The notes below the pieces were generated by a model. That model was given only the letters and a program-made list of their open reading frames with translations. It did no database searches and was not told the origin of the DNA. Of a DNA stretch of 64,000 nt, positions 1 to 51,005 are shown piece by piece. The translations under genes were made by a program, and so were the position numbers. Source of the stretch: Spirochaetota bacterium (GTDB lineage: Bacteria > Spirochaetota > UBA4802 > UB4802). The stretch spans positions 62,001 through 126,000 of the forward strand of contig JBFLZD010000001.1 of NCBI GenBank assembly GCA_040756435.1. The letters run 5' to 3'. Numbering within the stretch: position 1 is the first letter of the stretch; every line of letters starts with the position of its first letter.

Positions 1-456
1 ACATATTGCAATATTCCATTCGTACGCAGCGAGCAAAGTGGCGTGCGCCCAGGCGAACTTTTTTTATCATATAAAATTTTATCAAATCAGCCAGAGCCGG
101 AGCAATGTGTTATCATAAAATACTTAGAAAAGGATGATACACAAGCTATTAAGCAGAAAATTAAAGAAAGTGAAATAATTGTATCGCTTACGTTTATAGG
201 AAATGAAGATAACTTTGGTAATGTATGGGATGCTACAAATAAAGCATATGATTTTATTGATTCAATAGAAGGATTTGAGGCGGCATGTGCTATTGGAATT
301 GGAGTAAGTGTTAAAGGTCCAATCCAGGATAGAACGGTATTTTTAGAAACATCGTATGAATACAGGCTTGGATTTGATATCATAATCAGGAATGAAATGA
401 TTACTGAAGTGATAATAGATGCTGTTGATATTAATGCAACATTATACAATTTATAA
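1..456 (+). CDS. Phage neck/terminator protein (gp12-like, LIC_12616-like), 5' end outside window
   Basis: The frame is open to the first base of the window, so the gene starts upstream; the GTG at 43 is probably internal. The visible 151 or so residues are acidic and rich in beta-prone stretches, with a VRPGELFLSYKI segment near the start and a conserved-looking GFDIIIRNEM segment near the end. Size and position directly before the sheath gene fit the neck or tail-terminator protein of contractile-tail phages, which caps the tail tube. The sequence is AT-rich, unlike the sheath gene that follows. The role is inferred mainly from synteny. Confidence 0.55.
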   Translation, partial: TYCNIPFVRSEQSGVRPGELFLSYKILSNQPEPEQCVIIKYLEKDDTQAIKQKIKESEIIVSLTFIGNEDNFGNVWDATNKAYDFIDSIEGFEAACAIGIGVSVKGPIQDRTVFLETSYEYRLGFDIIIRNEMITEVIIDAVDINATLYNL

Positions 457-476
457 TTTTAATGAGGAGGACACAA

Positions 477-1514
477 ATGGCGTATATCAATGATTTAGAT
501 ATCCAAATTACCCTTGCGACGAAGCCGCTTACCGTGCAGGGTTTTTCGAAAATTTTAATCCTTGGCAATCGAACAAGCCCCAATACTCTCATCGGGCATT
601 ATGGGGAATATGCTGACCTTGCGGGCATGATTACGGCGGGATTTGTCAGCACTGATCCCGAATATAAAATGGCCGCGCTTATTTTTGCGCAGTCTCCCTG
701 CCCCAGCGAAATCGCGGTACATATTCATGATGCCGCAACGGACATCGACGATGCGCTTGATACACTGGTACTCACTCACAACGACTGGTATGGGCTGCTC
801 ATCACCAGCCGCGACGCGGATGATCTCCACACTGCCGGAACATGGGCTTTGGGGCATGAGAAACTCTTTATTGGATGTACCGCATCGCCGACAGCCTTAA
901 CCGATCGCAACAACATCCGGGAAGCGTATGTGATACACGACAAAGCGACGGATTATCCCGAAGCGGCCTGGGCGGGGCTTTGTTTCCCGCAGTCGATTGG
1001 TTCTATCACCTGGAAGTGGAAATCGCCAACTGGAGTTGTGGCAAGCAGTTTTACGCTCACGCAACTGAATGCCATACGGGACGGCAAAGGACAGACATTT
1101 TCCGAAAGAAGCGGGATTGTCTATTCCGACGAGGGAATCACAACTGGCGGAGAATATATCGACGTCATCATGAGCAGAGATTACATCAAAGCGCGTCTCG
1201 GTGAGGCGCTGTTTGCGCTGCAAACTCGCGTGGGTAAAATTCCTTTTGATGATTACGGTGGTGCAATGCTTGAAGCAACGATACGCGATGTATTGCGCCA
1301 GGCGGGCAAGCAGGGAATCATCGCGAAAGCGGTGAGCGAAGCAGACAAGAAGCTCAGCGACGAAGGTGAATATATGTATCAGGTCTATGTACCGCCGCGC
1401 AGTGAAGTTCCCGCAAATGACAGGGCTGAGCGAAAATGGACGGGTATCACTTTCAGCTTCGCGCTTGCCGGCGCAGTACATAAAACTCAAATTTCCGGTA
1501 CGATTACGATTTAA
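477..1514 (+). CDS. Tail sheath protein (DUF3383 family)
   Basis: A 345-residue protein that starts MAYINDLDIQITLATKPLTV, typical of DUF3383 sheath proteins, which form the contractile outer cylinder of myovirus tails. The ATG at 477 is chosen over the in-frame one at 462 because GAGGAGG lies just upstream of it. The next gene is the tube protein, the usual sheath-tube order. The coding sequence is clearly GC-richer than the genes on both sides, with many GCG, CGC and CCG codons, so this cistron may have arrived by recombination with another phage. Confidence 0.8.
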   Translation: MAYINDLDIQITLATKPLTVQGFSKILILGNRTSPNTLIGHYGEYADLAGMITAGFVSTDPEYKMAALIFAQSPCPSEIAVHIHDAATDIDDALDTLVLTHNDWYGLLITSRDADDLHTAGTWALGHEKLFIGCTASPTALTDRNNIREAYVIHDKATDYPEAAWAGLCFPQSIGSITWKWKSPTGVVASSFTLTQLNAIRDGKGQTFSERSGIVYSDEGITTGGEYIDVIMSRDYIKARLGEALFALQTRVGKIPFDDYGGAMLEATIRDVLRQAGKQGIIAKAVSEADKKLSDEGEYMYQVYVPPRSEVPANDRAERKWTGITFSFALAGAVHKTQISGTITI

Positions 1515-1525
1515 GGAGGTAGAAA

Positions 1526-1936
1526 ATGTCTGGTTTTTATGATCCTAAAGAAGTGAGGCTTATAATAAATGGACTGGATGTTACTGGTTTTGCTGAAGGA
1601 GAAAAAATTAAAATAGAGCCTGTTACAAAAGAAGACTATAAAAGTTTTGTTGGGGTTGATGGCGAAGTGAGTTTCTCAAAGGTGAACGATGATCGGCATA
1701 CTATCACTTTCACGTTGAAAGAAGAATCTCCAAGTAATAAGGTGCTGGATGCGCTGCGCAAACTTCCAACAAGTTTTGCGGTTATGGTGAAAAACACCAG
1801 CGCAGGCAAATTTATTGGTGGTTCGATTGGTTGCCGCTTCGCCGAAAAGCCGTCGATCACCTTTGGCGCAGAGGATCCGAAGCGTGAATGGAAAATTATA
1901 GCCCCAAGCTGGAGTGGCCAGGCTTTGCCAGAATAA
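1526..1936 (+). CDS. Tail tube protein (DUF3277 family)
   Basis: A 136-residue protein beginning MSGFYDPKEVRLIINGLDV, with the pattern of DUF3277 structural proteins. In contractile phages these form the inner tail tube through which DNA passes. AAGGAGG precedes the ATG at an ideal distance, and the gene follows the sheath gene by 11 bases. A GVDGEVSFSKVNDDRHTIT stretch (residues about 44-62) is the most recognisable part of the tube-like beta sandwich. Moderately AT-rich codon use returns here after the GC-rich sheath gene. Confidence 0.75.
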   Translation: MSGFYDPKEVRLIINGLDVTGFAEGEKIKIEPVTKEDYKSFVGVDGEVSFSKVNDDRHTITFTLKEESPSNKVLDALRKLPTSFAVMVKNTSAGKFIGGSIGCRFAEKPSITFGAEDPKREWKIIAPSWSGQALPE

Positions 1937-1946
1937 GGAGGTAATA

Positions 1947-2300
1947 ATGTCGACAGTGAGTGTGATATCAAGCGAGCGTGATGGGCTTGTTGTAGTAATA
2001 AAGTTTGTGGACGGTAAAACATACCGTCTCCAGCATCCTGGGAATCGCACATACCTTGAATGGCAAAAAGAGTTTTTTACTGTAACCGAAGGGATGGATG
2101 TGGCAAAGTTTCTGGATAAGGCTTTTGAATATTGTGTAATCCCTGAAGGGCATACCTTTCGTCCTACGGTCGATACGGTAAAGCCTAAAGAATTGGGGGT
2201 TTGGAGCCGTGTGCTCCGGCGGTTTCTTGACGGGGACCTTGACGCTCCCGTACGAAATGAAGCAGATGCGCCAAAGAATAGCCAAAGAAGTGCAGGATAA
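1947..2300 (+). CDS. Tail assembly chaperone, upstream (G-like) product
   Basis: A 117-residue protein encoded between the tube and tape-measure genes, the invariable site of tail assembly chaperones that coat the tape measure before tube polymerisation. The start at 1947 is chosen because AAGGAGG sits just upstream; the longer frame from 1914 would overlap the tube gene. Its 3' part overlaps a second open frame (open from 2182, ending 2463). This is the layout of lambda G/GT and Mu, where a ribosomal frameshift makes the longer fusion. A run of five G at 2195-2199 lies within the overlap. Confidence 0.6.
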   Translation: MSTVSVISSERDGLVVVIKFVDGKTYRLQHPGNRTYLEWQKEFFTVTEGMDVAKFLDKAFEYCVIPEGHTFRPTVDTVKPKELGVWSRVLRRFLDGDLDAPVRNEADAPKNSQRSAG

Positions 2301-2463
2301 CTGGCACTATTGGCGGCCTATAGTATATGGCGTAGTAAAAATTACGTTAGAGGAGTATGATTTATCATCTCCTCTATTTGTATGGAAGCTCAATGCGGCA
2401 ATGGATTATAGAAGCGAGCTTGAAAAACGGGAATTTGAACGGGCAAAGGCAGAAATAAAATGA
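2254..2463 (+). CDS. Tail assembly chaperone, downstream (T-like) frame
   Basis: This frame is open from 2182 to 2463 and overlaps the previous gene in a different phase. It overlaps the tape-measure start by 4 bases (ATGA), which argues that it is translated. The only reasonable ATG is at 2254 and no ribosome binding site precedes it, so it is more likely expressed as a frameshift extension of the upstream chaperone. Residues after the overlap include WHYWRPIVYGVV and a charged helix ending ERAKAEIK. Function is assigned only from position and layout. Confidence 0.5.
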   Translation, partial: EMKQMRQRIAKEVQDNWHYWRPIVYGVVKITLEEYDLSSPLFVWKLNAAMDYRSELEKREFERAKAEIK

Positions 2464-4370
2464 GTGATGTAATACGCAGTTTAGGCATAGAGATAAATCT
2501 TACTGGTAATGCAGACGATGAACTGCGCGCATGGGGACAGGAATTGCGCGAAGCTCGCGGTGCCGCACTAGGATTTACAGATAATATGAATGAACTTGAA
2601 AAAGAAATGCTTGAGGCGGCAAAAAAAATTGGACTCACTGAAGAGCAACTTAAAGATCTTGTTAATGAAACCAGAAGAGGAAGAGAAATTCAAGATTTTG
2701 CTCAAAAATATGGCTTTTCAATAGATCAAATCAGGCAAAAAACTGAAGGTGCAACCGAAAGTATCGCTACATTTGGCAACGCCATGCGTGCGCTGGCTGC
2801 GGCAGGCTTAATACGAGGATTGTTTGGTGTGGCAAGCGATATAGTGCAGGTAGCAGCGCGCTATGAACAGACCGCAACAAGCTTTGAGGTAATGTTAGGC
2901 TCCGCCGAGCGCGCCCGCGATGTTCTAAGACAGCTAACTGAGTTTTCAAACGTAACGCCTTTTACCCCGGAAGAGGTCACGGCGGCAGGCCGTTCACTTA
3001 TGGCTATGGGTGTGCCGGCAGAACAGCTTATTAATACCATGCGCATGGTGGGCGATGTGGCAAGCGGCGCGAATATGGATTTTAATGAGCTTGCGCAGAT
3101 ATGGGGCAAAAATTTAGCCTCTGGAGTTGTGCAGATGGAAGACCTCAATCAGATTGCCGGCCGCGGTATTCCTATCATGGAAGAGCTCTCAAAAGTGTTT
3201 TTCGGGAATAAAGAACATGTGCAGCAAGTACGGGAACTTTCATCTAAAGGGCAAATATCGTTTAAGCATCTTGAACAGGCATTTCGCAACATGACAAGCC
3301 AGGGAGGGCGTTATTTTAATTCAATGGAACGCCAGTCGCGCACCGCAATGGGACTCTGGAGTACTCTTACCGGCAACATCGGCGAAACAAAGCGTCAGAT
3401 TGGAATGATGCTCCTGGAAGCGCTAAAACCTTTACTGGAACTTCTGGTAAAAATTACCGGGTGGCTTGTCAATACCAAATGGGCGATGAATGCGCTTAAA
3501 ATAATGTTCTTTGCGGCAATCCCGGTAATAATTGGCATATCTGTTGCATTAGTGAAATCGCTCATTCCTGCTATCATCGCCGCGACAATAAAATTCTGGG
3601 GTATGGCTGCTGCGACAATCGCCGCAACATGGCCGTTTATGCTCATTGCTGCAGCAATTATCGCGCTAATAGTTGTCATTGAGGATTTATATGTATGGAT
3701 AACCGGCGGGCAATCGCTTATTGGTGAGTGGCTTGGTTCTTTCTCGGATTTTGCAGCAAAAATTAAAAATATCTTCATTGGGCTATGGGAGAAAATAAAA
3801 TCTATCTTTATTGGAGTAGTTAATTTTTTTAAGAATTATGGGAAATATCTCATGATGGCAATATTCCCGCTTTCAGCGTTATATTTTTATTGGGATCAGA
3901 TTGTTGCATTTTTTAAATCAATTCCAAATAGAGTAGTATCATTCTTTAGCTCTATCCCAGAACGTATTGTTTCATATCTATCAGGCCTTGGGTCTCGTAT
4001 CCGCGATGCACTCACTGGGATTTTGCCTCAATGGGCAGTAAATTTAGTTGCGCGTATTTCAGAACCATCACGGCAGAATCTGCAGGCTCGAGCTTCGGGC
4101 GGTCCAGTGAACGCAGGAAGTACCTACTTGGTAGGCGAAGAAGGTCCAGAGCTTTTTACGCCTTCACGGTCTGGCTATATCATTCCAAATGGTGCTTCAA
4201 TTTCGGCAGGACGTGCACATATTGTAATATCTCCTGTGCTGAATTTTAATGCACCTGTTCGCAAAGACGATGCAGAATATGTACGCGATGTGGTATCAAG
4301 AGTGCTATCTGAGATAGCAACGCGTATAGAATGCAGTGTGCGTGCAGGCCTTGGACTGGAGGTTGGCTAA
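2460..4370 (+). CDS. Tail tape measure protein
   Basis: A 636-residue protein with an N-terminal coiled-coil-like region (1-110). A tape-measure core of the TIGR02675 type follows (about 130-310; motifs FTPEEVTAAGRSLMAMG, DFNELAQIWGKNLASG, LNQIAGRGIPIMEEL). Then comes a strongly hydrophobic block (about 345-415) and a C-terminal domain with GGPVNAGSTYLVGEEGPEL, a motif common near the ends of tape measures. It sets tail length and passes into the host membrane during DNA ejection. At 636 residues the tail would be short to medium. Confidence 0.88.
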   Translation: MSDVIRSLGIEINLTGNADDELRAWGQELREARGAALGFTDNMNELEKEMLEAAKKIGLTEEQLKDLVNETRRGREIQDFAQKYGFSIDQIRQKTEGATESIATFGNAMRALAAAGLIRGLFGVASDIVQVAARYEQTATSFEVMLGSAERARDVLRQLTEFSNVTPFTPEEVTAAGRSLMAMGVPAEQLINTMRMVGDVASGANMDFNELAQIWGKNLASGVVQMEDLNQIAGRGIPIMEELSKVFFGNKEHVQQVRELSSKGQISFKHLEQAFRNMTSQGGRYFNSMERQSRTAMGLWSTLTGNIGETKRQIGMMLLEALKPLLELLVKITGWLVNTKWAMNALKIMFFAAIPVIIGISVALVKSLIPAIIAATIKFWGMAAATIAATWPFMLIAAAIIALIVVIEDLYVWITGGQSLIGEWLGSFSDFAAKIKNIFIGLWEKIKSIFIGVVNFFKNYGKYLMMAIFPLSALYFYWDQIVAFFKSIPNRVVSFFSSIPERIVSYLSGLGSRIRDALTGILPQWAVNLVARISEPSRQNLQARASGGPVNAGSTYLVGEEGPELFTPSRSGYIIPNGASISAGRAHIVISPVLNFNAPVRKDDAEYVRDVVSRVLSEIATRIECSVRAGLGLEVG

Positions 4371-4975
4371 TGGGACTTTTAAATCTCATTTTTGGCACAC
4401 CTGGGATGCTGTATGACAAAAAGACCGGTAAAAACCAGGTGATACTTGGTCCAATATCAGGCGAGGATGAATCGTATTCTGCTAATGTATGCTCTCACGC
4501 TGTCGAAAATGGCTCTGAGATTTCGGATCATGTGCATGCTCAGCCAGGGCAATTTTCGATCAAAACATTTTTGGTGGATAAAAACGACCTGATGGCAATG
4601 GCAGTGGGGCTTGTAACTGGCGACAATCAAACAGTGTCGGAAAAACTCGCACTTCTGAAACTCTGGCGCGAAAACGGGGAACTGTTGGTCTATAGCGGCC
4701 CAGTTTTTTCGGGACTAATTTTACGCGGCTATGATATGTATGTGGAGGACGTGGTAATAACAAGTCTAGGGATATCGCGAACAGTTGATAACGGTGAGGG
4801 AATGGAAGTTTCTTTATCACTAAAAAAAATTATAATTGCGGATGCACTCACCACCAGTGTGCGGCTTCCACAGCCAGTGCGTTCTGCAACAATTTCAGGT
4901 CAACATAATACTGGCAACATAAGTGCAAATGCAAGTAAAACAAGTTTTGCAGCAAAAGTTTTTGGGAGTAAATGA
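4370..4975 (+). CDS. Dit-like phage tail protein
   Basis: A 201-residue protein starting MGLLNLIFGTPGMLYD. The ATG at 4370 overlaps the stop of the tape-measure gene (TAATG), so it is preferred to an upstream start within that gene. The middle part (ISDHVHAQPGQFSIKTFLVD, then DYMYVEDVVITSLGISRT-like strands) resembles the N-terminal domain of Dit-like baseplate proteins that join tail tube and baseplate. The next gene overlaps by 4 bases, so translation is coupled. Confidence 0.6.
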   Translation: MGLLNLIFGTPGMLYDKKTGKNQVILGPISGEDESYSANVCSHAVENGSEISDHVHAQPGQFSIKTFLVDKNDLMAMAVGLVTGDNQTVSEKLALLKLWRENGELLVYSGPVFSGLILRGYDMYVEDVVITSLGISRTVDNGEGMEVSLSLKKIIIADALTTSVRLPQPVRSATISGQHNTGNISANASKTSFAAKVFGSK

Positions 4976-5301
4976 TGATAATACATTATTTGCCATACTC
5001 ACATGTAGAGCTCCCAATATCGAAGACATTTGATATTTTCGGATCGCGCTATGATGTAACAATATATTACAACGACCGCTGCGATATCTATAGCATACTA
5101 ATATCGAAAGATGAAAAGGTTTTATTCGCTGGTAAAATTACCTATTTGAGGAATGCGGTCGATGTAATAATGGCAGATATACCCGATAGCGCAATGATAG
5201 TACCATTAATACTCGAAGATGTTTTAAGGGAAGTTCCGCGAGTAAAACGTGTTTCGAAGGAAAATTTCGATAGGGTTATGTTAGCATATGAAATTATATA
5301 A
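4972..5301 (+). CDS. Baseplate plug-like protein
   Basis: A 109-residue protein that overlaps its upstream neighbour by 4 bases and its downstream neighbour by 14. The sequence is a series of short beta strands (VELPISKTFDIFGSRYDVTI, DIYSILISKDEKVLFAGKI). Size, composition and position between the Dit-like and hub genes fit the baseplate plug family, which closes the lumen at the baseplate. This rests mainly on gene order. Confidence 0.5.
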   Translation: MMIIHYLPYSHVELPISKTFDIFGSRYDVTIYYNDRCDIYSILISKDEKVLFAGKITYLRNAVDVIMADIPDSAMIVPLILEDVLREVPRVKRVSKENFDRVMLAYEII

Positions 5302-6073
5302 GCGAATATGCAGTTTTACGATAGAAGGTAGAAAGCTTACCTACCCGCCGATGACGCTTGAATTTGAATCAGAGTTTTCTGCAAACGGCATATCGACTGC
5401 AAAGGCAAAAATAATGAACCCTGCGCATGAAACAGTGAATAAATGTCAAAAAGTGGGTAATAAATTCCCACAAATTATTATCGATGCGGGCTATGAATAT
5501 GATCATGGTACATGCGTAATAGGTGAAATCATTAAATGGGAACTCAAAAAAGGCTCTCCTGACTGGAGTTTAGAGCTTACTATTGCAGATAAATCGTCAC
5601 TTTGGACAAGCGCAATAGTTAATAAATCGTGGCGGTCGTTTATTACTGCACGGCAAGCCGCAACGGAGCTTTTATCTGAATTTGGTATCACCGCCGTAGA
5701 AATGGTATTTGGCGAAGAAAAATCATATCCGAATGGACTTGCATTTTCGGGAGTATCATTACGAAGCGCTCTTGAACGCATTGCACGAGATACGCGAAGC
5801 TCATTTTCTTTCGTTAATGGGCAGGCGAAATTTTACACACAGCAAGCAGGTACAGCAACTGCGATAGTTCTGCGATATGATTCCGGGCTTTTGGAAGCAA
5901 CGAAAACGGAAAAAGGGTATAAGATTAAAACGCTTTTTATGCACAAGATAATGGGGAATTCAATAGTACAATTACAGTTCGACAATCAAATGACAAATTT
6001 AAAAGTAATAAAAGGCAAACATGTGTTTTCCCCAGAATCAGCAAGCACTGAGTTTGAGGCGAAACGCTTATGA
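5288..6073 (+). CDS. Baseplate hub protein
   Basis: A 261-residue protein with the layout of Mu gp44/P2 gpD-type hub proteins: an N-terminal strand-rich domain (FTIEGRKLTYPPMTLEFESE), a central region VNKSWRSFITARQAATELLS typical of hub subdomains, and a C-terminal barrel region. The hub lies at the centre of the baseplate and holds the spike. It overlaps both neighbours (14 and 4 bases), consistent with one coupled operon. One copy of the over-represented motif GCGATAGTT lies in this gene (5861-5869). Confidence 0.65.
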   Translation: MKLYKRICSFTIEGRKLTYPPMTLEFESEFSANGISTAKAKIMNPAHETVNKCQKVGNKFPQIIIDAGYEYDHGTCVIGEIIKWELKKGSPDWSLELTIADKSSLWTSAIVNKSWRSFITARQAATELLSEFGITAVEMVFGEEKSYPNGLAFSGVSLRSALERIARDTRSSFSFVNGQAKFYTQQAGTATAIVLRYDSGLLEATKTEKGYKIKTLFMHKIMGNSIVQLQFDNQMTNLKVIKGKHVFSPESASTEFEAKRL

Positions 6074-6681
6074 TCGCTGAATTTATAAAACTTTTTGAGG
6101 ATTTTTGGAATAATCGTGCCAAAGAAATTATCATTGGTGCAATTGGGCGCATTGAATCGCATAATCTTGCAACGATGCGTGCCGATGTAACGCCGCTCTT
6201 ATATTTTACGCCGCAAGGGACAACTTCACCGCGTAACTTTACGGTTATTGCAAATGTTCCGGTGCTGTTTATATGGGCAGGAGGTTATTATATCCGTCCC
6301 GAGTATAAACGCGGTGATTTGGTTTGGCTTAGTTTTGCAACATTCGATATATCAAAAGGCCTTTCTGGACAGGCGGATGCTGCAGATGGGGCGATGTTTC
6401 GCCGTGAAAGCGCAGCCGTGGTTGGCGGCATTGCAAAAAATAGCTGGCAAAAGCCTTCCGATATCACTAAACCGGGGCTTCTTGTTGGGCATAAAGACGG
6501 AAATGTGCTTTTGCAAATAACAGACAGCAAAATTATAATTAAAGGCGATATCGAGATTACTGGCAACCTATGGGCAAGCGGCGAAATAACCGCCAAAAAG
6601 ACCACAATGCCAGTGAATCTTTCGACGCATACACATCCTACTGGCGTTGGCCCTTCTGGCCCGCCAAATCCTGGAACGTGA
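6070..6681 (+). CDS. Baseplate spike protein (Gp138/gpV-like)
   Basis: A 203-residue protein with an N-terminal OB-fold-like region (about 18-125) matching Gp138_N-type spike proteins: IGRIESHNLATMRADVTPLL, then PEYKRGDLVWLSFA. A beta-helix-like segment follows (SKIIIKGDIEITGNLWASGE). The C-terminus HTHPTGVGPSGPPNPG is the His-rich, Gly/Pro-rich end often seen at the metal-bound spike tip of P2 gpV-like proteins. It pierces the outer membrane on tail contraction. Confidence 0.75.
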   Translation: MIAEFIKLFEDFWNNRAKEIIIGAIGRIESHNLATMRADVTPLLYFTPQGTTSPRNFTVIANVPVLFIWAGGYYIRPEYKRGDLVWLSFATFDISKGLSGQADAADGAMFRRESAAVVGGIAKNSWQKPSDITKPGLLVGHKDGNVLLQITDSKIIIKGDIEITGNLWASGEITAKKTTMPVNLSTHTHPTGVGPSGPPNPGT

Positions 6682-6689
6682 GGTGTAGT

Positions 6690-6902
6690 ATGGCACTTGA
6701 TAAAAACGGCTTAAAATCTGCATTACAGTCAATTTTTGAAGATTTAAGCAATAAATCAGCTGCGACCGTTGCACAACAGATGGCAGATGCAATCGATACA
6801 TACGTAAAAACTGCTGAAGTAGTGCCAGGTATTCCAGTGAGCGGGACCTGCCCACAGGGGCCTGTGACAGGACAAACTTCTGGGCCTGGGAGTCTTATAT
6901 GA
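6690..6902 (+). CDS. Small phage baseplate-region protein, unknown function
   Basis: A 70-residue protein between the spike and the gp25/gp46-like wedge genes. The ATG at 6690 with upstream GTGAGGTG is chosen; an open frame running from 6570 through the spike gene is not credible. The first half is a predicted amphipathic helix (LDKNGLKSALQSIFEDLSNK). The C-terminal end is rich in Gly, Pro, Ser and Thr (GTCPQGPVTGQTSGPGS), echoing the end of the spike protein. The next gene overlaps by 4 bases, so it is probably translated. Confidence 0.6.
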   Translation: MALDKNGLKSALQSIFEDLSNKSAATVAQQMADAIDTYVKTAEVVPGIPVSGTCPQGPVTGQTSGPGSLI

Positions 6903-7243
6903 TTACCTGGGAAATGCAAGACGGTGACATTGTACTGCAAAAAGGATGCCCAGTAATACTTACTGAAAATGAATGCTTGCGACAAAGGCTTGTGAATAAA
7001 ATTAAACTCGATAAAGGCGGTTGGTTCTTTGATCCAGATAGAGGGATCCCATGGATTGATATTTATAACAATAAAAACGTTACCGAACGGCTTGTTCGAT
7101 CGCATATCCAAAGAGTTTTACAAGAAGATGCTGAAGTCACAAAAGTGAGGTCAATCAATATTGATTTTGATCGAGCATCGAGAACACTTATTATATATTT
7201 TGAAGTTGAAAGCAAATATGGTGTGGTAAGAGGCAATATATGA
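6899..7243 (+). CDS. Baseplate wedge protein (GPW/gp25, Mu gp46-like)
   Basis: A 114-residue protein of the gp25/gp46 family, part of the inner baseplate that starts sheath contraction. Visible features are the conserved region KLDKGGWFFDPDRGIPWID (about 39-57) and the helix NVTERLVRSHIQRVLQED, followed by the C-terminal strands ASRTLIIYFEVES. It overlaps the preceding and following genes by 4 bases each, the usual coupled arrangement with baseplate J downstream. Confidence 0.8.
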   Translation: MITWEMQDGDIVLQKGCPVILTENECLRQRLVNKIKLDKGGWFFDPDRGIPWIDIYNNKNVTERLVRSHIQRVLQEDAEVTKVRSINIDFDRASRTLIIYFEVESKYGVVRGNI

Positions 7244-8427
7244 ACTATGGGATTACACCGCAGGGGTTTATTCGAAAACCTTTTAATGTAATTTTACAGG
7301 AATTAGTACAGACTGCTCAATCTGGCGAATATTTTGGAAGCGAAATAGACTTATCACCCGAAAGTCCGCTTGGTGCTTTAGTGCATTTAATGGCATTGGC
7401 AATAGACAGGCAATGGCAACTTGCAGAAGATGTCTACTACTCAATGTGGCTATCGACTGCAGAAGGGGTACATCTGGACAGAGTTTGTAAATTGGGATTT
7501 GTGTCACGAAGACCTGCCACTTATGCAACTGTGATGCTCCGGTTTTATGGCGAGCCTGGATCTGAAATACCAGCAAAAACCCAAGCAGAAACAGCACAGA
7601 ATATTGTGTTTGAGACGATAAACGATGCGGTAATTGCAAGCGAAGGCTATGTCGATGTTCTGGCGCGATGTGCTCTGCCAGGAACAGTTGGCATAGTACA
7701 AAGCGGCATGATTAATAGCATTAAAACACCGTTGCCTGGAGTCGATTCGGTTATAAATCTACAGGCGTCATTTGGCGGGAAAGACATTGAAAGCGATTAC
7801 GAACTCGTTGAGCGTTACCAACAGCTTCCTGCTGCCACAGGGAGTTCTGTACATTCTCTGATTTCAGCATTAAAAAATACTGAAGGCGTTATTTCTGCTA
7901 CGGTATTCGAGAACACTGGCAATGTTGTAGATAGCAATGGACTACCTCCTAATTCAATTGTGTGTATCGTGCAGGGTGGCGCTGACCAGGATATTGCACG
8001 AACAATATTTACTAAAAAAGCAGCAGGAATTGCAACGCATGGCTCCGAAGAAATACAGATTGTCGATGAGTATGGTATAGATCGGTTAATAAGATTCTCC
8101 AGGCCTCTAAATATTAATGTATATGTCCGCTATGAAATACAAACTAATCAGGAGTGGAGCGATGATAATATAATTGTTATTAAGCGCAATGCAATAAAGT
8201 ATATCGGTGGTGTTGATGATAATAATGTTGAGCATAGCGGTGTCGGGATTGCAAATACGGTATATATCTGGAAACTCATTGCGATGCAGCAGGAGATTGT
8301 CGGGATAAGCAGTATTAACGTCAAAATAGGCAAAACATATCCTCCATCACAATTAGATAATCTCACATTTTTACCGCTCGAAAGAGCCTGGACAGATATT
8401 AATAAGATAGAGGTTGTGAAGATATAA
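7240..8427 (+). CDS. Baseplate J-like protein (Mu gp47-like)
   Basis: A 395-residue protein of the baseplate J/gp47 family. It starts MNYGITPQGFIRKPFNVILQ and carries typical motifs: DLSPESPLGALVHLMALAID, AEGVHLDRVCKLGF (about 80-93), AQTEAQNIVFETI-type strand pairs and KNTEGVISATVFENTG. These proteins form the wedge ring that links hub, wedge and tail fibres. It is 4 bases into the gp25-like gene and shares a TAATG stop/start with the next gene. Confidence 0.88.
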   Translation: MNYGITPQGFIRKPFNVILQELVQTAQSGEYFGSEIDLSPESPLGALVHLMALAIDRQWQLAEDVYYSMWLSTAEGVHLDRVCKLGFVSRRPATYATVMLRFYGEPGSEIPAKTQAETAQNIVFETINDAVIASEGYVDVLARCALPGTVGIVQSGMINSIKTPLPGVDSVINLQASFGGKDIESDYELVERYQQLPAATGSSVHSLISALKNTEGVISATVFENTGNVVDSNGLPPNSIVCIVQGGADQDIARTIFTKKAAGIATHGSEEIQIVDEYGIDRLIRFSRPLNINVYVRYEIQTNQEWSDDNIIVIKRNAIKYIGGVDDNNVEHSGVGIANTVYIWKLIAMQQEIVGISSINVKIGKTYPPSQLDNLTFLPLERAWTDINKIEVVKI

Positions 8428-9074
8428 TGTATTCAGAAATAATACAGCTTTTACCAAATACGATATATAGCCGAAGTGGCAATATTAAAAAGCTATTTGA
8501 GCTATTCGCCGGTGAGCTTAATAATCTTTATGCGACATTTGAAGAGCTTCGATATGTAAGAGATATAGAGAATCAACAGGGAGTTGTGCTTGATCTCATT
8601 GGCGAAATATTGCGCGAAAAGAGGTTTGGCTATGATGATATCTCCTATCGCTTATATTTATCGATTGCTATACAAAAATTATTATGTTCAGGTTCGATAG
8701 AATCGTTACAAACTGTTTTGCGCGCAATCCTTGATGATGATTTTGTTGGAATTTATGAGTTAACTCCAGATTATCAGGATTTTTTATATAGTGACAAACG
8801 AATATATACTGATGGTAATAGATACCTTGACGGATCATATTATCTTGCTGGCGAACCGCCAGAAGGAAGTTATTCTCCGTATGAGATGTGGCTTGATGGC
8901 AAATACTATTTAGATGGAACCTATTATCTCTCCGGAACAATTTTCCAGCCAGGGATGATCGAAGTGGTCGTTGTATCATCGATTAGCGATGTGCTGCTAA
9001 ATTATGTAAATAGCATCATGGCATATATTAAGCCGGCGGGAGTCCGGTATAGAATAAGAAAACTGGAGGCATAA
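8427..9074 (+). CDS. Phage tail protein, DUF2612/gp48-like, with YLDG repeats
   Basis: A 215-residue protein. The N-terminal half (1-110) looks like DUF2612/gp48-type proteins that connect baseplate J to tail fibres: LIGEILREKRFGYDDISYR and IQKLLCSGSIESLQTVLRAI. Residues about 130-170 hold an unusual near-repeat, YLDGSYYLAG, then YYLDGTYYLSG, plus related DGNRYLDG and WLDGKYYLDG, possibly a beta-solenoid or flexible adaptor. The next gene is the DGR-diversified fibre, so this protein may be its attachment point. Confidence 0.65.
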   Translation: MYSEIIQLLPNTIYSRSGNIKKLFELFAGELNNLYATFEELRYVRDIENQQGVVLDLIGEILREKRFGYDDISYRLYLSIAIQKLLCSGSIESLQTVLRAILDDDFVGIYELTPDYQDFLYSDKRIYTDGNRYLDGSYYLAGEPPEGSYSPYEMWLDGKYYLDGTYYLSGTIFQPGMIEVVVVSSISDVLLNYVNSIMAYIKPAGVRYRIRKLEA

Positions 9075-9075
9075 C

Positions 9076-10581
9076 ATGACTATCCCAAACCCTACAAAAA
9101 CCCGCGAATGGAAAGATGGCAACACCCCCGCGACGGGTACGCCTGCGCTTGGAAGTTATTTCAACGCTGAATTCGATCAACTGTATGCTAATGATAATTA
9201 TTTAGATACAAACAAGCTTGATAAATCTGGAGGCGTAATCACAGGTAATTTAACTATAAATGGCGATCTAGCCGTTCAGGGCGATAATGTTGTAATAAAC
9301 GTAACAGAAGTGCAAGTGGAAGATAAAATTATTACATTGAATAATGGCGAAGTTGGTCCGGGAGTGACTGGAACTGGAATTTCTGGTATCGAAATAGATC
9401 GAGGAAACGGACAAGATAAAGCAAGATTGGTATTTGATGAAAGCGACGATAGTTTTAAAGCTGGTCTCGGTTCAAATATTGTACAGATAATTACAAAAAC
9501 TGCATTTGAAGCAAGGCTAGGTTTACAATTTTTTAATGTTTTCCAACGTATACGAAAGAATGGGTCGAACAATGAAGTGATTGTGCCACCTTTTAGGGTT
9601 GTGCTTAATTCAAAAGAATATTTTACAACGGACAATGCGATCCTGGGGATTGCACATTTAGATACCGGATCGAGCTGGATGTTTGGCTCTGATTATTACA
9701 TTTGGGCTGGAGAACCAAATTCCGGAGATGCTCCTGTGCTAAAAATATCATTATCACAAACCTCACCTCAGGAAATGACTAATCCGCGTATTATTGGCGG
9801 ATTTCATTATGGAAAAATTCGCAATTCAATTACTATTAGCGATGTAAGTAATGGCATAATACCAAATTCTGTATGGGATCTAAACCATATGCCGCGATGT
9901 TATTTGTTAGGATTAGAAGATCCAGAAAATTATCAGATCGGCGGGATGGTTGAAGTGGTAAAAGGAAGTCTGTGGGTAGATATCTATCTTGCAAGCCACG
10001 GTGGCGGTAGCGGATTTAATAAGCGTGTTTATAGCAAGATAAACCAATTACCTCTTACTGGTACAGATGGGCTTAATTGGTATGATTTTGTTGTTAGGGG
10101 TAAAAATTCTGGTAAACGAATGCTTACATACGAAGAATGGATTGCAGCTGCCGTGGGGAGTCCTCAGGGTCGCAGTGATAGCAACCTGCATGGATGGACT
10201 AAAACAAGCAATACCGGGAGAATTAAGACTGCAGCTACGAATCAATCTGATGCAGACGCTGATTATATTAATGGCTATAATACAAGTCTTATGAATGTAA
10301 GAGACTGCGTGGGCAATGTATGGGAATGGCTCAATGAGCTATCTAACCGAACCGATACGACCTCGTGGAACTGGTATAATGTATTAAATGCAGGAGAGAT
10401 GGCTGCAGATACCGACTTTGGACAAGCAAATATGCCCAATAATATAGGTCTTGTCGCTTATTTAGCTGGCGGCGATTGGGGCCATGGTATCTATGCCGGC
10501 TCCCGTGCGGTGTACGTGGGCAATGTGCCGTGGCTCGTCGGCCCGTACTATGGTTGCCGCTTTGCCTGTGAATCTCTGTAA
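9076..10581 (+). CDS. DGR target: tail fibre/receptor-binding protein with C-type-lectin (FGE-like) C-terminus
   Basis: A 501-residue protein preceded by GGAGG. The N-terminal third (1-150) is fibre-like, with NLTINGDLAVQGDNVVIN and repeated DKIITLNN/GPGVTGTGI strands. The C-terminal domain (about 310-501) has formylglycine-enzyme/C-type-lectin motifs: SGKRMLTYEEWIAAA, then DCVGNVWEWLNE, then GGDW and GCRFAC. Residues 463-499 are encoded by the variable repeat. Compared with the template, nine residues are changed (467, 469, 470, 480, 482, 487, 489, 491, 492) and codon 464 differs silently. It is the probable adhesin at the tail tip, diversified by the reverse transcriptase downstream. Confidence 0.88.
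   Translation: MTIPNPTKTREWKDGNTPATGTPALGSYFNAEFDQLYANDNYLDTNKLDKSGGVITGNLTINGDLAVQGDNVVINVTEVQVEDKIITLNNGEVGPGVTGTGISGIEIDRGNGQDKARLVFDESDDSFKAGLGSNIVQIITKTAFEARLGLQFFNVFQRIRKNGSNNEVIVPPFRVVLNSKEYFTTDNAILGIAHLDTGSSWMFGSDYYIWAGEPNSGDAPVLKISLSQTSPQEMTNPRIIGGFHYGKIRNSITISDVSNGIIPNSVWDLNHMPRCYLLGLEDPENYQIGGMVEVVKGSLWVDIYLASHGGGSGFNKRVYSKINQLPLTGTDGLNWYDFVVRGKNSGKRMLTYEEWIAAAVGSPQGRSDSNLHGWTKTSNTGRIKTAATNQSDADADYINGYNTSLMNVRDCVGNVWEWLNELSNRTDTTSWNWYNVLNAGEMAADTDFGQANMPNNIGLVAYLAGGDWGHGIYAGSRAVYVGNVPWLVGPYYGCRFACESL
10462..10571 (+). repeat. DGR variable repeat (VR)
   Basis: A 110-base segment at the 3' end of the fibre gene that matches the template repeat 498 bases downstream. By direct comparison there are 14 differences, and at 13 of them the template has A. 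Of 23 template adenines 13 are changed, against 1 of 87 other bases. Variable positions fall mainly in AAC and AAT codons of the template. The last 22 or so bases (TTGCCGCTTTGCCTGTGA) are identical, GC-rich and adenine-poor, as expected for the initiation-of-mutagenic-homing site. Confidence 0.93.
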
Positions 10582-10604
10582 TCTGTATTCTGGGTATCTA
10601 TTTT

Positions 10605-10943
10605 ATGAAAGAATTTATATTATACCAAAAGGTATATGATTTTATGTTATATCTATTCCCACTTGTGGATAGATTTCCGAAGCATGAAAAATTTGCTCTG
10701 CAAACACAAATAAAAAATAGTATATATAACTTGTTGCGATTGACCATTGAGATTCAAAAATCAAAAAATAAAATGAAACTACTTTATGATTTTGATAAAG
10801 AATTAGAATTTTTAAAAACGTTGATAATGTTTGCAAATGACAAGAAGCCAGCTTGTTTGAGTACTAAATCGCGCCAAACAAGTATGGAAAAATGCATTGA
10901 GATAGGCAAAATTGTTGGAGGTTTGCTTAAAACATTTTCTTAA
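10605..10943 (+). CDS. avd: DGR accessory variability determinant (Avd), four-helix bundle
   Basis: A 112-residue helical, basic protein between VR and TR, the canonical place of Avd. The pattern YQKVYDFMLYLFPLVDRFPK, then FALQTQIKNSIYNLLRLTIE, then two further helices, is that of the four-helix-bundle/23S-intervening-sequence-like family. In phage BPP-1, Avd forms a pentameric barrel that binds the reverse transcriptase and template RNA and is needed for retrohoming. No clear Shine-Dalgarno precedes the ATG. The stop is 16 bases before TR. Confidence 0.85.
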   Translation: MKEFILYQKVYDFMLYLFPLVDRFPKHEKFALQTQIKNSIYNLLRLTIEIQKSKNKMKLLYDFDKELEFLKTLIMFANDKKPACLSTKSRQTSMEKCIEIGKIVGGLLKTFS

Positions 10944-10959
10944 TTTGGGTATTGCTCGT

Positions 10960-11069
10960 TTAGCAGGCGGCAATTGGGACAATGGTATCTATGCCGGCTC
11001 CCGTGCGGTGAACGTGAACAATGTGCCGTGGAACGTCAACCCGAACATTGGTTGCCGCTTTGCCTGTGA
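10960..11069 (+). repeat. DGR template repeat (TR)
   Basis: A 110-base non-coding master copy of the VR, between avd and the reverse transcriptase. It contains seven AAC/AAT codon equivalents in the VR reading phase, which give broad amino-acid choice on random substitution of A. Similarity ends sharply after TGTGA on the 3' side and fades upstream of TTAGC. An open frame passes through TR (10912-11205) but has no start signal and is best seen as a by-product of the VR copy. Transcribed, this segment would be the RNA copied error-prone into cDNA. Confidence 0.92.
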
Positions 11070-11089
11070 CTTCATAAAAGAAGTCCAGA

Positions 11090-11193
11090 TTATTGTTTCA
11101 GAGCAGACAATAACAGTGACAAAGAGAGTCAGGAGCAAATATCCAGGCTTTACGCCAAAAGAGAGAAGACTGGAGCAGTTGCGACTGCTCCAG
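11090..11193 (+). other. Structured TR-RT spacer with two hairpins
   Basis: Between TR and the reverse transcriptase lie two inverted repeats. One is TTATTGT (11090-11096) with ACAATAA (11107-11113). The other is a perfect 9-bp stem, CTGGAGCAG (11170-11178) with CTGCTCCAG (11185-11193), around a 6-base loop. In the best-studied DGR the RNA just downstream of TR is required for priming and for binding of RT and Avd, so this spacer may do the same here. The second hairpin ends 5 bases before the RT start and could instead affect RT translation. Confidence 0.55.
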
Positions 11194-11198
11194 ATATT

Positions 11199-12203
11199 AT
11201 GGTGAAATATATGGATAAATTATTTGCTTCGATTTATGATTATAGTAACTTACTTTTGGCATGGAAGAAGACTCAAAGGCTTCGTAAATATAATCAAGAT
11301 ATTATATTTTTCCGAAAAAATCTTGATGAGAATCTTATAATTATCCAAAATGAGTTAATTTGGAAGTCTTACAAGGTTTCAGAATATCAGAATTTTGTTA
11401 TTTATGAGCCTAAAAAACGCCTTATAAGCGCTTTACCGGTAAAAGATAGAATTGTGCAACATGCCCTTGTTAATATTATAGAACCAGTCATTGACAGAAA
11501 ATTTATTTTTGATTCCCATGCTTGTCGCAAGGGTCATGGTCTTAAACTTGCAGTTGATAGATTTATAAAGTTCGCAAAGAAAAATAAATATTGTTTAAAA
11601 TGTGATATTGCTTCATATTTCCCTTCTATTAATCACGTCGTATTAAAATTATTATATAGAAGACATATCTCATGCGATGACACTTTATGGTTAATAGATA
11701 GAATAATAGATTCTACTGAAAATCCAGGCTTGCCAATAGGAAATCTTTTGTCGCAACTATCTGCAAACCTATATTTGCATGAATTAGATTTTTATGTTAA
11801 ACATCAGCTCAAACTAAAATATTATATTAGATATATGGATGATTTTGTCGTTTTTGATAACAACTACCAAAGTTTAATAAAAATCAAAGATTCAATAAGA
11901 GATTTTTTACAAAATCACTTATTATTAAACTTAAAAGAGGAAAAATCAAAAATTCATGAAACAAAAAATGGAGTAGATTATTGTGGATTCCGTTGCTATC
12001 CCTCCCACGCGGTTGTCAAAAAAGAAACAAGAATAAGGAATTACAAGCGCATAACTCAATTAGCAAATGGTTTAAAGAATAATATTATAACTCCAGATGA
12101 TTTTTTGAATTCTTTAACATCTATAATAGGGCATTCGATGTATTCAAGAAATTATTCTTATAGGAAAAATATTATTGATATATTTTATAAAATTAATATT
12201 TGA
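11199..12203 (+). CDS. DGR reverse transcriptase
   Basis: A group-II-intron-like reverse transcriptase of 334 residues (330 if the ATG at 11211 is used; neither has a clear ribosome site). The catalytic YMDD is at 212-215. Further motifs are a KCDIASYFPSINH aspartate motif (about 142-154) and LPIGNLLSQ, with Ser-Gln at 185-186 where most reverse transcriptases have QG. That SQ is a hallmark of DGR enzymes and is linked to their adenine-specific infidelity. There is no maturase or endonuclease domain. It copies the TR RNA into mutated cDNA that replaces VR. Confidence 0.95.
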   Translation: MVKYMDKLFASIYDYSNLLLAWKKTQRLRKYNQDIIFFRKNLDENLIIIQNELIWKSYKVSEYQNFVIYEPKKRLISALPVKDRIVQHALVNIIEPVIDRKFIFDSHACRKGHGLKLAVDRFIKFAKKNKYCLKCDIASYFPSINHVVLKLLYRRHISCDDTLWLIDRIIDSTENPGLPIGNLLSQLSANLYLHELDFYVKHQLKLKYYIRYMDDFVVFDNNYQSLIKIKDSIRDFLQNHLLLNLKEEKSKIHETKNGVDYCGFRCYPSHAVVKKETRIRNYKRITQLANGLKNNIITPDDFLNSLTSIIGHSMYSRNYSYRKNIIDIFYKINI

Positions 12204-12226
12204 AATTTTAGAATTTCTCATTTTAA

Positions 12227-12688
12227 CTGCGCACGAACAAATTTTTTATCGCACACAAACATGATTTTGAAAATATCGATTATTCATATATTCAAGAAGT
12301 ACCAGTTACTAGTTCGGAAGATGTTAAATATTCAGAGGAGTATCATTTAGACGGAGTAAATAATAATGTTAAAGAAATATATTCATATTTAAAAGATAAA
12401 TTATTAAACATTAATAGGGATCTTATTTTTAATCCACAAAAGTATTATGTATCAATTGTAAATAATCGCAATGTAGCTTACTTCAAATTTCGAATGAAAA
12501 AAATAGGTATTGTTGTAATGCTTCCTTATGAGGAAATATTAAATAAAATTACCAATCATTCTGTTAAACAATTATCTGATAGTGTTCAAAGTTTTTATAA
12601 TGGTCCCTGTGCAGAAGTTGAATTATTTGAACCAAAATCACTTGAAGAAGTAATTCTCTTGTTAAAACCTTTAGTAACAAAAGATTAA
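12227..12688 (+). pseudogene. 5'-truncated DUF5655-like protein remnant
   Basis: A frame open from 12227 to the stop at 12688 encodes about 153 residues without a start codon near its beginning; the first ATG is at 12494, well inside the domain. The C-terminal part (EEYHLDGVNNNVKEIYSYL, later FKFRMKKIGIVVMLP and a final ELFEPKSLEEVILLL) resembles DUF5655, a domain at the C-terminus of some nuclease- or restriction-like proteins. The missing N-terminus abuts the DGR module, so the insertion of the phage or a deletion may have cut the gene. Family match is tentative. Confidence 0.5.
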
Positions 12689-49322: not shown

Positions 49323-51005
49323 ATGACAAAACCACTTATCGTCCAGAGCGACAATACGCTACTACTTGAGGTAGATAATCCCCTGTATGAAGAGGTGAGG
49401 GATGCAATTTTGCCTTTTGCTGAGCTTGAAAAAAGCCCCGAGCATATCCACACCTACCGTATAACGCCGTTATCGTTGTGGAATGCAGCCTCAGCTGGCC
49501 TTAGTACAAAAGAAATCCTGGAGCGTATTGAGCGATACTCGCGCTATTCTGTTCCTGCAATAGTTATCACCACCATCAAAGAGCAGATGGATCGCTATGG
49601 TTTGCTTACCCTGATAAAGCGTGGTGATACCCTCATCCTGCAATCTGATGATGTGCATATTATACGGGAGATAGCTACCCATAAACAGATTCAGAAATTT
49701 ATTGAAGGGCAGCTTTCTGAGTATGAAATACGCGTAAAGCCTCACAATCGCGGGCATATAAAACAGGCGTTAATAAAGATTGGATTTCCCGTTGAAGATA
49801 AAGCGGGATACGTTGATGGTGATCCCTGCCCATTTGAGTTGCGAACTGTTACAGCCAGTGGCATGCCGTTTGAGATTCGTGATTATCAGAAGAATGCAAT
49901 TGATAGTTTCTATCGCTCAGGAAGTGAAGAGGGTGGAAGCGGTGTGGTTGTGCTGCCCTGTGGTGCAGGCAAAACTATCGTTGGTATTGGCATTATGCAC
50001 CGGTATCAAACAAAGACGCTCATCTGTGTTACCAACACCGTTGCGCTTCGCCAGTGGATTGATGAGCTATTGGATAAAACTACATTGACTAAAGATATGA
50101 TTGCTGAGTATTCCGGTGATAGCAAAGACATTAAACCGGTAACTATCGCCACCTATAATATTTTGACATACCGCCGTAAAAAAGAAGATGAATTCAAGCA
50201 TTTTGGCCTGTTTACACAGAATAACTGGGGCTTAATCATTTACGATGAAGTGCACCTTTTGCCAGCCCCCGTATTTAGAATGACTGCCGAGATACAGTCA
50301 AAGCGCCGTTTGGGGCTTACTGCCACACTGGTGCGTGAGGATGGACTGGAAACAGACGTGTTTAGCCTCATTGGGCCAAAAAAATTTGATATGCCCTGGA
50401 AGATGCTTGAAGAATGTAGGTGGATTGCAAAGGCTATCTGTACCGAGGTGCGTATTGAATTGCCCGAAAGCTTGCGCTATCAGTATACGGTTGCCGGCGA
50501 TAGGCAAAAGTTTAGAATTGCTTCGGAGAATGAAAAAAAACTGCATTATGTGGAGCAATTATTAAAGGCTCACCCCAATGACCGTGTTCTTATCATTGGG
50601 CAATATATTGACCAGTTAGAAAAGATTCAGGAGCGTTTTTCATTTCCGCTTATTACCGGAAGCACTCCCATAAAAGAACGCGAGGAACTGTATAAACAAT
50701 TTAAACAGGGTGCCATTACACGGCTTATTGTTTCAAAGGTTGCAAATTTTTCTATAGATCTTCCTGATGCCAATGTTGCCATTCAGGTTTCCGGTACGTT
50801 TGGTTCACGCCAGGAAGAGGCACAGCGTTTGGGGCGCATCCTTCGTCCAAAGCCGGGGGACAACACGGCGTATTTTTATTCGCTCATAACGGCACACACC
50901 GTTGAGGAAAATTTTGCGCACAACCGCCAGCTTTTCTTAACAGAGCAGGGGTATACCTACATCATCATGAATGAAAGCATGTTCCATGAAAAGTTTAGTT
51001 CTTAG
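49323..51005 (+). CDS. XPB/Ssl2-like DEAH-box DNA helicase
   Basis: A 560-residue superfamily 2 helicase of bacterial XPB type. An N-terminal damage-recognition-like domain (about 1-175) is followed by motor domain 1 with GAGKT (about 217), IYDEVHLLP (DEVH box) and GLTATLVREDG, then motor domain 2 with LIIGQYIDQ and the motif VI QRLGRILRPK. The RED motif of XPB proteins is present (VREDG). It unwinds DNA, probably in repair. The downstream hydrolase gene starts within its last 20 bases. Confidence 0.9.
   Translation: MTKPLIVQSDNTLLLEVDNPLYEEVRDAILPFAELEKSPEHIHTYRITPLSLWNAASAGLSTKEILERIERYSRYSVPAIVITTIKEQMDRYGLLTLIKRGDTLILQSDDVHIIREIATHKQIQKFIEGQLSEYEIRVKPHNRGHIKQALIKIGFPVEDKAGYVDGDPCPFELRTVTASGMPFEIRDYQKNAIDSFYRSGSEEGGSGVVVLPCGAGKTIVGIGIMHRYQTKTLICVTNTVALRQWIDELLDKTTLTKDMIAEYSGDSKDIKPVTIATYNILTYRRKKEDEFKHFGLFTQNNWGLIIYDEVHLLPAPVFRMTAEIQSKRRLGLTATLVREDGLETDVFSLIGPKKFDMPWKMLEECRWIAKAICTEVRIELPESLRYQYTVAGDRQKFRIASENEKKLHYVEQLLKAHPNDRVLIIGQYIDQLEKIQERFSFPLITGSTPIKEREELYKQFKQGAITRLIVSKVANFSIDLPDANVAIQVSGTFGSRQEEAQRLGRILRPKPGDNTAYFYSLITAHTVEENFAHNRQLFLTEQGYTYIIMNESMFHEKFSS

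Follow-up and report, generated by a model that had tools for sequence, protein, structure and literature searches.

The 64,000-nucleotide stretch of Spirochaetota DNA analysed here (the window) carries an Avd-type diversity-generating retroelement (DGR) at the right end of a phage remnant. With high confidence, we read it as a DGR of a left-deleted Mu-like prophage whose hairpin-less target is marked by a widespread run of TCTG units, a run that would serve in docking. The DGR itself is real and complete, and belongs to a known kind, the Avd-type phage DGRs. What lifts it above the routine is a target site that lacks the expected hairpin and exposes a widespread, apparently undescribed periodic element.

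The retroelement and its adenine-specific variation

The complete DGR spans window positions 9076-12203, in the order 501-aa target gene, avd, TR, 129-nt spacer and reverse transcriptase (RT). The features of the region, all on the plus strand, are:

1..12261 (+), starting upstream at G000:C1:55866: right part of a truncated, probably Mu-like transposable contractile-tail prophage (PHROG/Pfam matches)
9076..10581 (+): DGR target gene, Mtd-like tail-tip adhesin, 501 aa (Pfam mtd_2nd 9e-15, FGE-sulfatase 3.9e-07)
10462..10571 (+): VR, 110-nt core (repeat pair; 14 mismatches with TR, 13 at template A)
10574..10602 (+): periodic TCTG run 3' of VR, without hairpin (TCTG at 10575, 10582 and 10589, fourth unit degenerate)
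10605..10943 (+): avd, accessory variability determinant, 112 aa (bAvd 1.2e-30; NCBIfam DivGenRetAVD above cutoff; phrog_3206)
10960..11069 (+): TR, 110-nt core (repeat pair)
11070..11198 (+): spacer (Sp) of the DGR RNA, folded (z = -4.0; stems conserved with G042)
11199..12203 (+): DGR reverse transcriptase, 334 aa (RVT_1 4.4e-22; YMDD, PIGNLLSQ)
12249..12261 (+): phage right end, TCGCACACAAACA, terminal CA (the identical 13-mer ends the L051 phage, with different DNA beyond)
12262..12687 (+): second half of a split host gene, DUF5655-type protein (DUF5655 3e-04)

A complete DGR with its parts at these positions had been proposed in a first-pass annotation, and it is borne out by Pfam, NCBIfam and PHROG matches together with the TR/VR repeat pair; the HMM check recommended there for RT and Avd returned RVT_1, bAvd and DivGenRetAVD as listed. 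The start coordinate given there, 9076, is the beginning of the whole target gene, and VR begins later.

The target had been described as a C-type-lectin/FGE-like protein with VR at its 3' end, which agrees with the Mtd-like pair of Pfam matches, mtd_2nd and FGE-sulfatase. The domain matches lie at residues 178-268 and 332-424, the final residues are encoded by VR, and the PHROG match is to a tail protein (phrog_11262, 2e-43). The protein is predicted from these matches to be an Mtd-type receptor-binding protein, with the second domain of Mtd, a predicted C-type lectin/FGE domain and a C-terminal VR. An AlphaFold model built from only 3 aligned sequences has a pLDDT of 28.

Assignment of the RT to the DGR type draws on motifs in the open reading frame, the nearest solved RT (8ub7, 3e-45) and alignment with BPP-1 Brt (32-33% identity, in the phage collection) and others. 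DGR-type RTs have IGxxxSQ in place of QGxxxSP, and the frame at 11199-12203 encodes both YMDD and PIGNLLSQ, the YMDD and SQ motifs of the earlier reading. The whole genome contains one RT of the DGR kind, with one TR and one VR. The spacer between TR and RT is structured, as had been claimed: its z of -4.0 was matched by 0 of 200 shuffles. Its stems are common to the window and to a prophage DGR in G042, a genome of the same bacterial order, with three pairs changed on both sides; an Rfam search of the DGR region gave no match.

Variation between the repeats is concentrated at adenines. Within the core, TR and VR differ at 14 of 110 bases, 13 of them template adenines and one a non-A template base, and nine amino acids are changed, which reproduces the earlier counts. 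Counted over all 116 nt of the repeat, 13 of 16 mismatches fall at A (Fisher p = 9e-9), and the first two of the non-A ones sit at its 5' border, beyond the core. The check suggested at first pass, for an invariant VR or for variation away from template adenines, was carried out on relatives. Two IMG/VR contigs, L051 and L052, have the tail gene order of the window prophage and targets 67-68% identical to that of the window. Between their VRs, 8 of 23 TR-adenine columns differ compared with 5 of 93 others (p = 5e-4), the adenine columns being defined by the TR of the window; overall divergence between the two contigs is similar within and beyond VR. In G042, all of the TR/VR mismatches (10/10) are at template A. 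We infer current mutagenesis in cells and receptor variation, in that the adenine-specific change in VR would vary the receptor-binding tip of the phage tail.

A competing reading, which we hold to be possible but the less probable one, is that the DGR is an inactive fossil, its cassette intact merely through recent breakage of the prophage. Parts of the portal, terminase and transposase are missing, and the L051 target contains a stop codon, with TR and RT lost. All DGR genes in the window, however, are open and complete, its VR is readable, and change in the VR core is adenine-only save for one base. The loss of the left half of the prophage may leave the cassette, active or not, without present use. 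In the L051 locus itself (8897-10806, IMGVR_UViG_3300008255_004447), a close relative, the interrupted target is followed by a shortened Avd and then by the phage end.

The periodic run 3' of VR

In phage BPP-1, efficient homing requires a hairpin or cruciform after VR, and such inverted repeats are nearly universal in phage DGRs (PMC3240598). The target as defined in BPP-1 is a GC-rich hairpin/cruciform of 7-10 bp with a GRNA loop, located 4-34 bp past VR (PMC3240598). A relaxed search of window positions 10574-10660 for a hairpin of this type found none, and the DNA fold of the post-VR stretch is no better than that of its shuffles. The stretch from VR to the start of avd is instead filled by TCTG units every 7-8 nt, the sole chain of three within the window (P = 2e-4, by shuffling). 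Neither the absent hairpin nor the periodic run had been noticed at first pass. A run without a hairpin is found in G042 and L051 as well, and a pattern scan met the run again at the VR ends of other viral DGRs.

In an initial scan (57 contigs) the motif itself had served for selection, and the statistics are drawn instead from a set based on RT alignment: 80 viral DGR loci, in 66 of which an A-biased TR/VR pair could be placed, 63 of them non-redundant. Taking a run to be at least three pyrimidine-T-G units at 7-8 nt spacing, 49 of the 63 DGRs have one 3' of VR and 0 of 63 have one 3' of TR, the loci belonging to one broad RT clade and being not fully independent. The same criterion is satisfied by about 2% of dinucleotide shuffles of the post-VR stretches and by 0.26% of 12,138 random windows from the same contigs. 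The commonest unit is ATCTG, and the spacing is 7 (109 cases) or 8 (62), with a mean of 7.36.

By the relaxed hairpin test, the 63 DGRs divide into 36 with a run and a hairpin after or alongside it, 10 with a hairpin and no run, 4 with neither, and 13 with a run and no hairpin, a group that is somewhat smaller on inspection because some of its loci show bulged or 3-nt-loop hairpins. When the window, G042 and the pattern-scan loci are included, the hairpin-less group comes to well over ten, and avd mostly begins close behind the run. The usual order is reversed in three IMG/VR loci (L141, L147 and L156), where a short hairpin lies directly 3' of VR and a TCTG/CTG run behind it. A run was sought after VR in BPP-1, hankyphage p00, the archaeal virus ANMV-1 and a crAss-like phage, and is absent from these four. 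The examined stretches around other DGR loci were searched for extra VRs, and none was found.

One unambiguous remote-target case, Dulem virus 37, separates the run from avd. In this virus a further target, bearing a VR of its own, lies 10.4 kb away from TR and has no avd behind it. At the end of each target stands a run built of ACTG units, and behind it an identical GATA-loop hairpin; upstream, the two runs have drifted apart in sequence, with units and period preserved. Because the run is kept at a remote target that has no avd, it belongs with the target and not with avd. Phage nd12 was considered as a second such case and rejected, since its run-like sequence is coding and specifies NLKS in both targets; there, behind VRs that lie within coding sequence, ATCT units recur every 7-8 nt and also encode the shared NLKS, so that constraint on the peptide would account for them as well as constraint on the DNA (L221 15707-15860 and 27820-27920).

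The run probably takes part in recognition of the target. The TCTG units at 7-8 nt directly 3' of VR would mark the target site, replacing the canonical hairpin, and would most likely help the complex of RT, Avd and RNA/cDNA to dock there. A period of 7-8 nt differs from the turn of the DNA helix and would fit either a protein oligomer or a complex of RNA and protein bound to single-stranded DNA. One candidate for a run-binding oligomer is Avd, a pentameric ring. A point against docking is that BPP-1 and hankyphage home without a run. That the TCTG units might base-pair with CAGA of the spacer RNA was also considered and set aside, as the two do not covary (CAGA in 38 of 50 TCTG loci and in 10 of 13 others). 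CAGA as such is enriched, occurring within 60 nt after TR in 48 of the 63 DGRs, and many spacers contain a (C/T)CAGAAG motif about 8-13 nt after TR.

That the run would act in the mRNA ahead of avd as a control element, such as a site where Avd binds to regulate its own expression, and would not serve homing, is in our view unlikely. The gene order would allow it: avd follows the target in nearly all loci, and in the window the run finishes at the avd start. Yet many loci have a hairpin between run and avd, and the second target of Dulem virus 37, 10.4 kb away, keeps its run with no avd to control. Returning to target recognition, we put at about even the broader proposition that most Avd-type phage DGRs possess a post-VR cis element of 3-5 (A)TCTG/YTG units, one per 7-8 nt, that would act in target recognition by the RT-Avd-RNA/cDNA complex and would replace the hairpin/cruciform in one subgroup, the window included.

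How the mutagenised cDNA locates VR and gets into it is, by published accounts, still unsettled (PMC12135933, PMC12875486). A run that travels with its target, remote target included, allows a direct mutational test of target recognition. Annotation of VR ends and the finding of remote targets would benefit as well, and the retargeting of DGRs for directed evolution might too. The literature on DGR targets, searched in the text of openly accessible papers, describes the hairpin and IMH, and the run was not found in it; the element is apparently so far undescribed. The absence of a run from the BPP-1 model may explain why it has been overlooked.

The probably Mu-like prophage and its missing left half

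To judge from its sequence, the prophage is a Mu-like transposable phage that inserted into a host gene and would later have lost its left half, comprising the transposase, the terminase and most of the portal. A Mu-like phage is expected to have a transposase and MuB-like genes on its left, a terminal CA, and a position within a host gene flanked by a short target duplication. Of these marks the window copy shows the right-end CA and the split host gene; the left end, which would bear one copy of the target-site duplication, is deleted. The first half of the host gene (L003 13291-13865) and the second (12262..12687) give one open frame when joined. The first phage ORF is chimeric, with the N-terminal part of the host gene fused in frame to the C-terminal piece of the portal, and the left deletion junction has a 7-nt microhomology, TGATTTT.

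Head and tail genes begin at C1:56374, before the window starts, and continue as far as the DGR, in the gene order of the relatives: portal C-terminus, MuF, protease and capsid (L003), through to sheath, tape measure and baseplate J and I. In fuller relatives, the genes for terminase and portal lie left of MuF. The phage of G031 further encodes GemA and, at the place of MuB, an AAA ATPase; its candidate transposase matches no Pfam family. The Pfam models for the Mu portal and the Mu transposase gave zero matches on the bacterium's own genome, with the controls silent too.

Tail genes and DGR have stayed intact, and the prophage genes that remain are full length compared with those of relatives; the loss of the left half therefore looks recent. 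With the left half deleted, the prophage of this lineage would be unable to make infectious phage unaided. The earlier description of a contractile-tail prophage thus stands as regards the tail cluster, with the DGR after the last baseplate gene, and has to be amended in that the prophage is not intact. It is very improbable that the truncation is an assembly artefact and the true prophage complete: the draft assembly consists of 126 contigs and no more than 7 nt are shared at the left junction, but the relatives' terminase and candidate transposase, queried against the own genome, find nothing, their portal finds the C-terminal piece as its sole match, and completeness is put at 99.65%.

A tandem-repeat-like stretch (L003 11755-12485; G000:C1:53755-54485) with repeated peptides such as SSIYYLPMEGL adjoins the split host gene on its left. 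Elsewhere in the window, positions 49323-51005 encode a bacterial XPB-type DNA repair helicase (NCBIfam NF045503, above cutoff). For the host, taken at first pass to be probably a spirochaete, ribosomal protein S9 and NCBIfam matches do not discriminate between phyla.

Comparison with known systems

The DGR of BPP-1 (mtd-avd-TR-brt) resembles that of the window in gene order, Mtd-type target, Avd, the TR-Sp-RT arrangement and adenine-specific change, with RTs 33% identical. It differs in having a hairpin of the GGGGCC-GAAA-GGCCCC type directly after VR and no TCTG run. The parallel with BPP-1 drawn at first pass holds for the logic of the system, the Mtd-like target and the A-specific change in VR. 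It does not extend to integration: the attachment site of BPP-1 is identical to the 3' part of tRNA-His, whereas the window phage is probably Mu-like and would integrate in another mode.

Two transposable phages also have comparable DGRs. Bacillus phage BalMu-1 is Mu-like, with a DGR near its right end, an RT 41% identical to that of the window and a TCTG run after VR; unlike the window, it has a GGTA-loop hairpin behind the run and lysis genes past the RT. Bacteroides hankyphage p00 is likewise transposable, and its tail fibre is varied by a DGR located close to the right end (PMC12135933); it differs from the window in that no TCTG run follows VR.

The prophage DGR of G042 (L035) shares with the window the run without a hairpin, similar Sp folds and homologous proteins (RT 65% identical, Avd 75%, and the target 55% over its final 355 residues). 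Its phage backbone is unrelated, and none of the other remnant genes has a counterpart on the G042 DGR contig. Since the DGR is homologous and the backbone genes are not, the DGR and the adhesin end form a module common to unrelated phage backbones. The window presents such a cassette intact within a half-deleted, probably transposable prophage.
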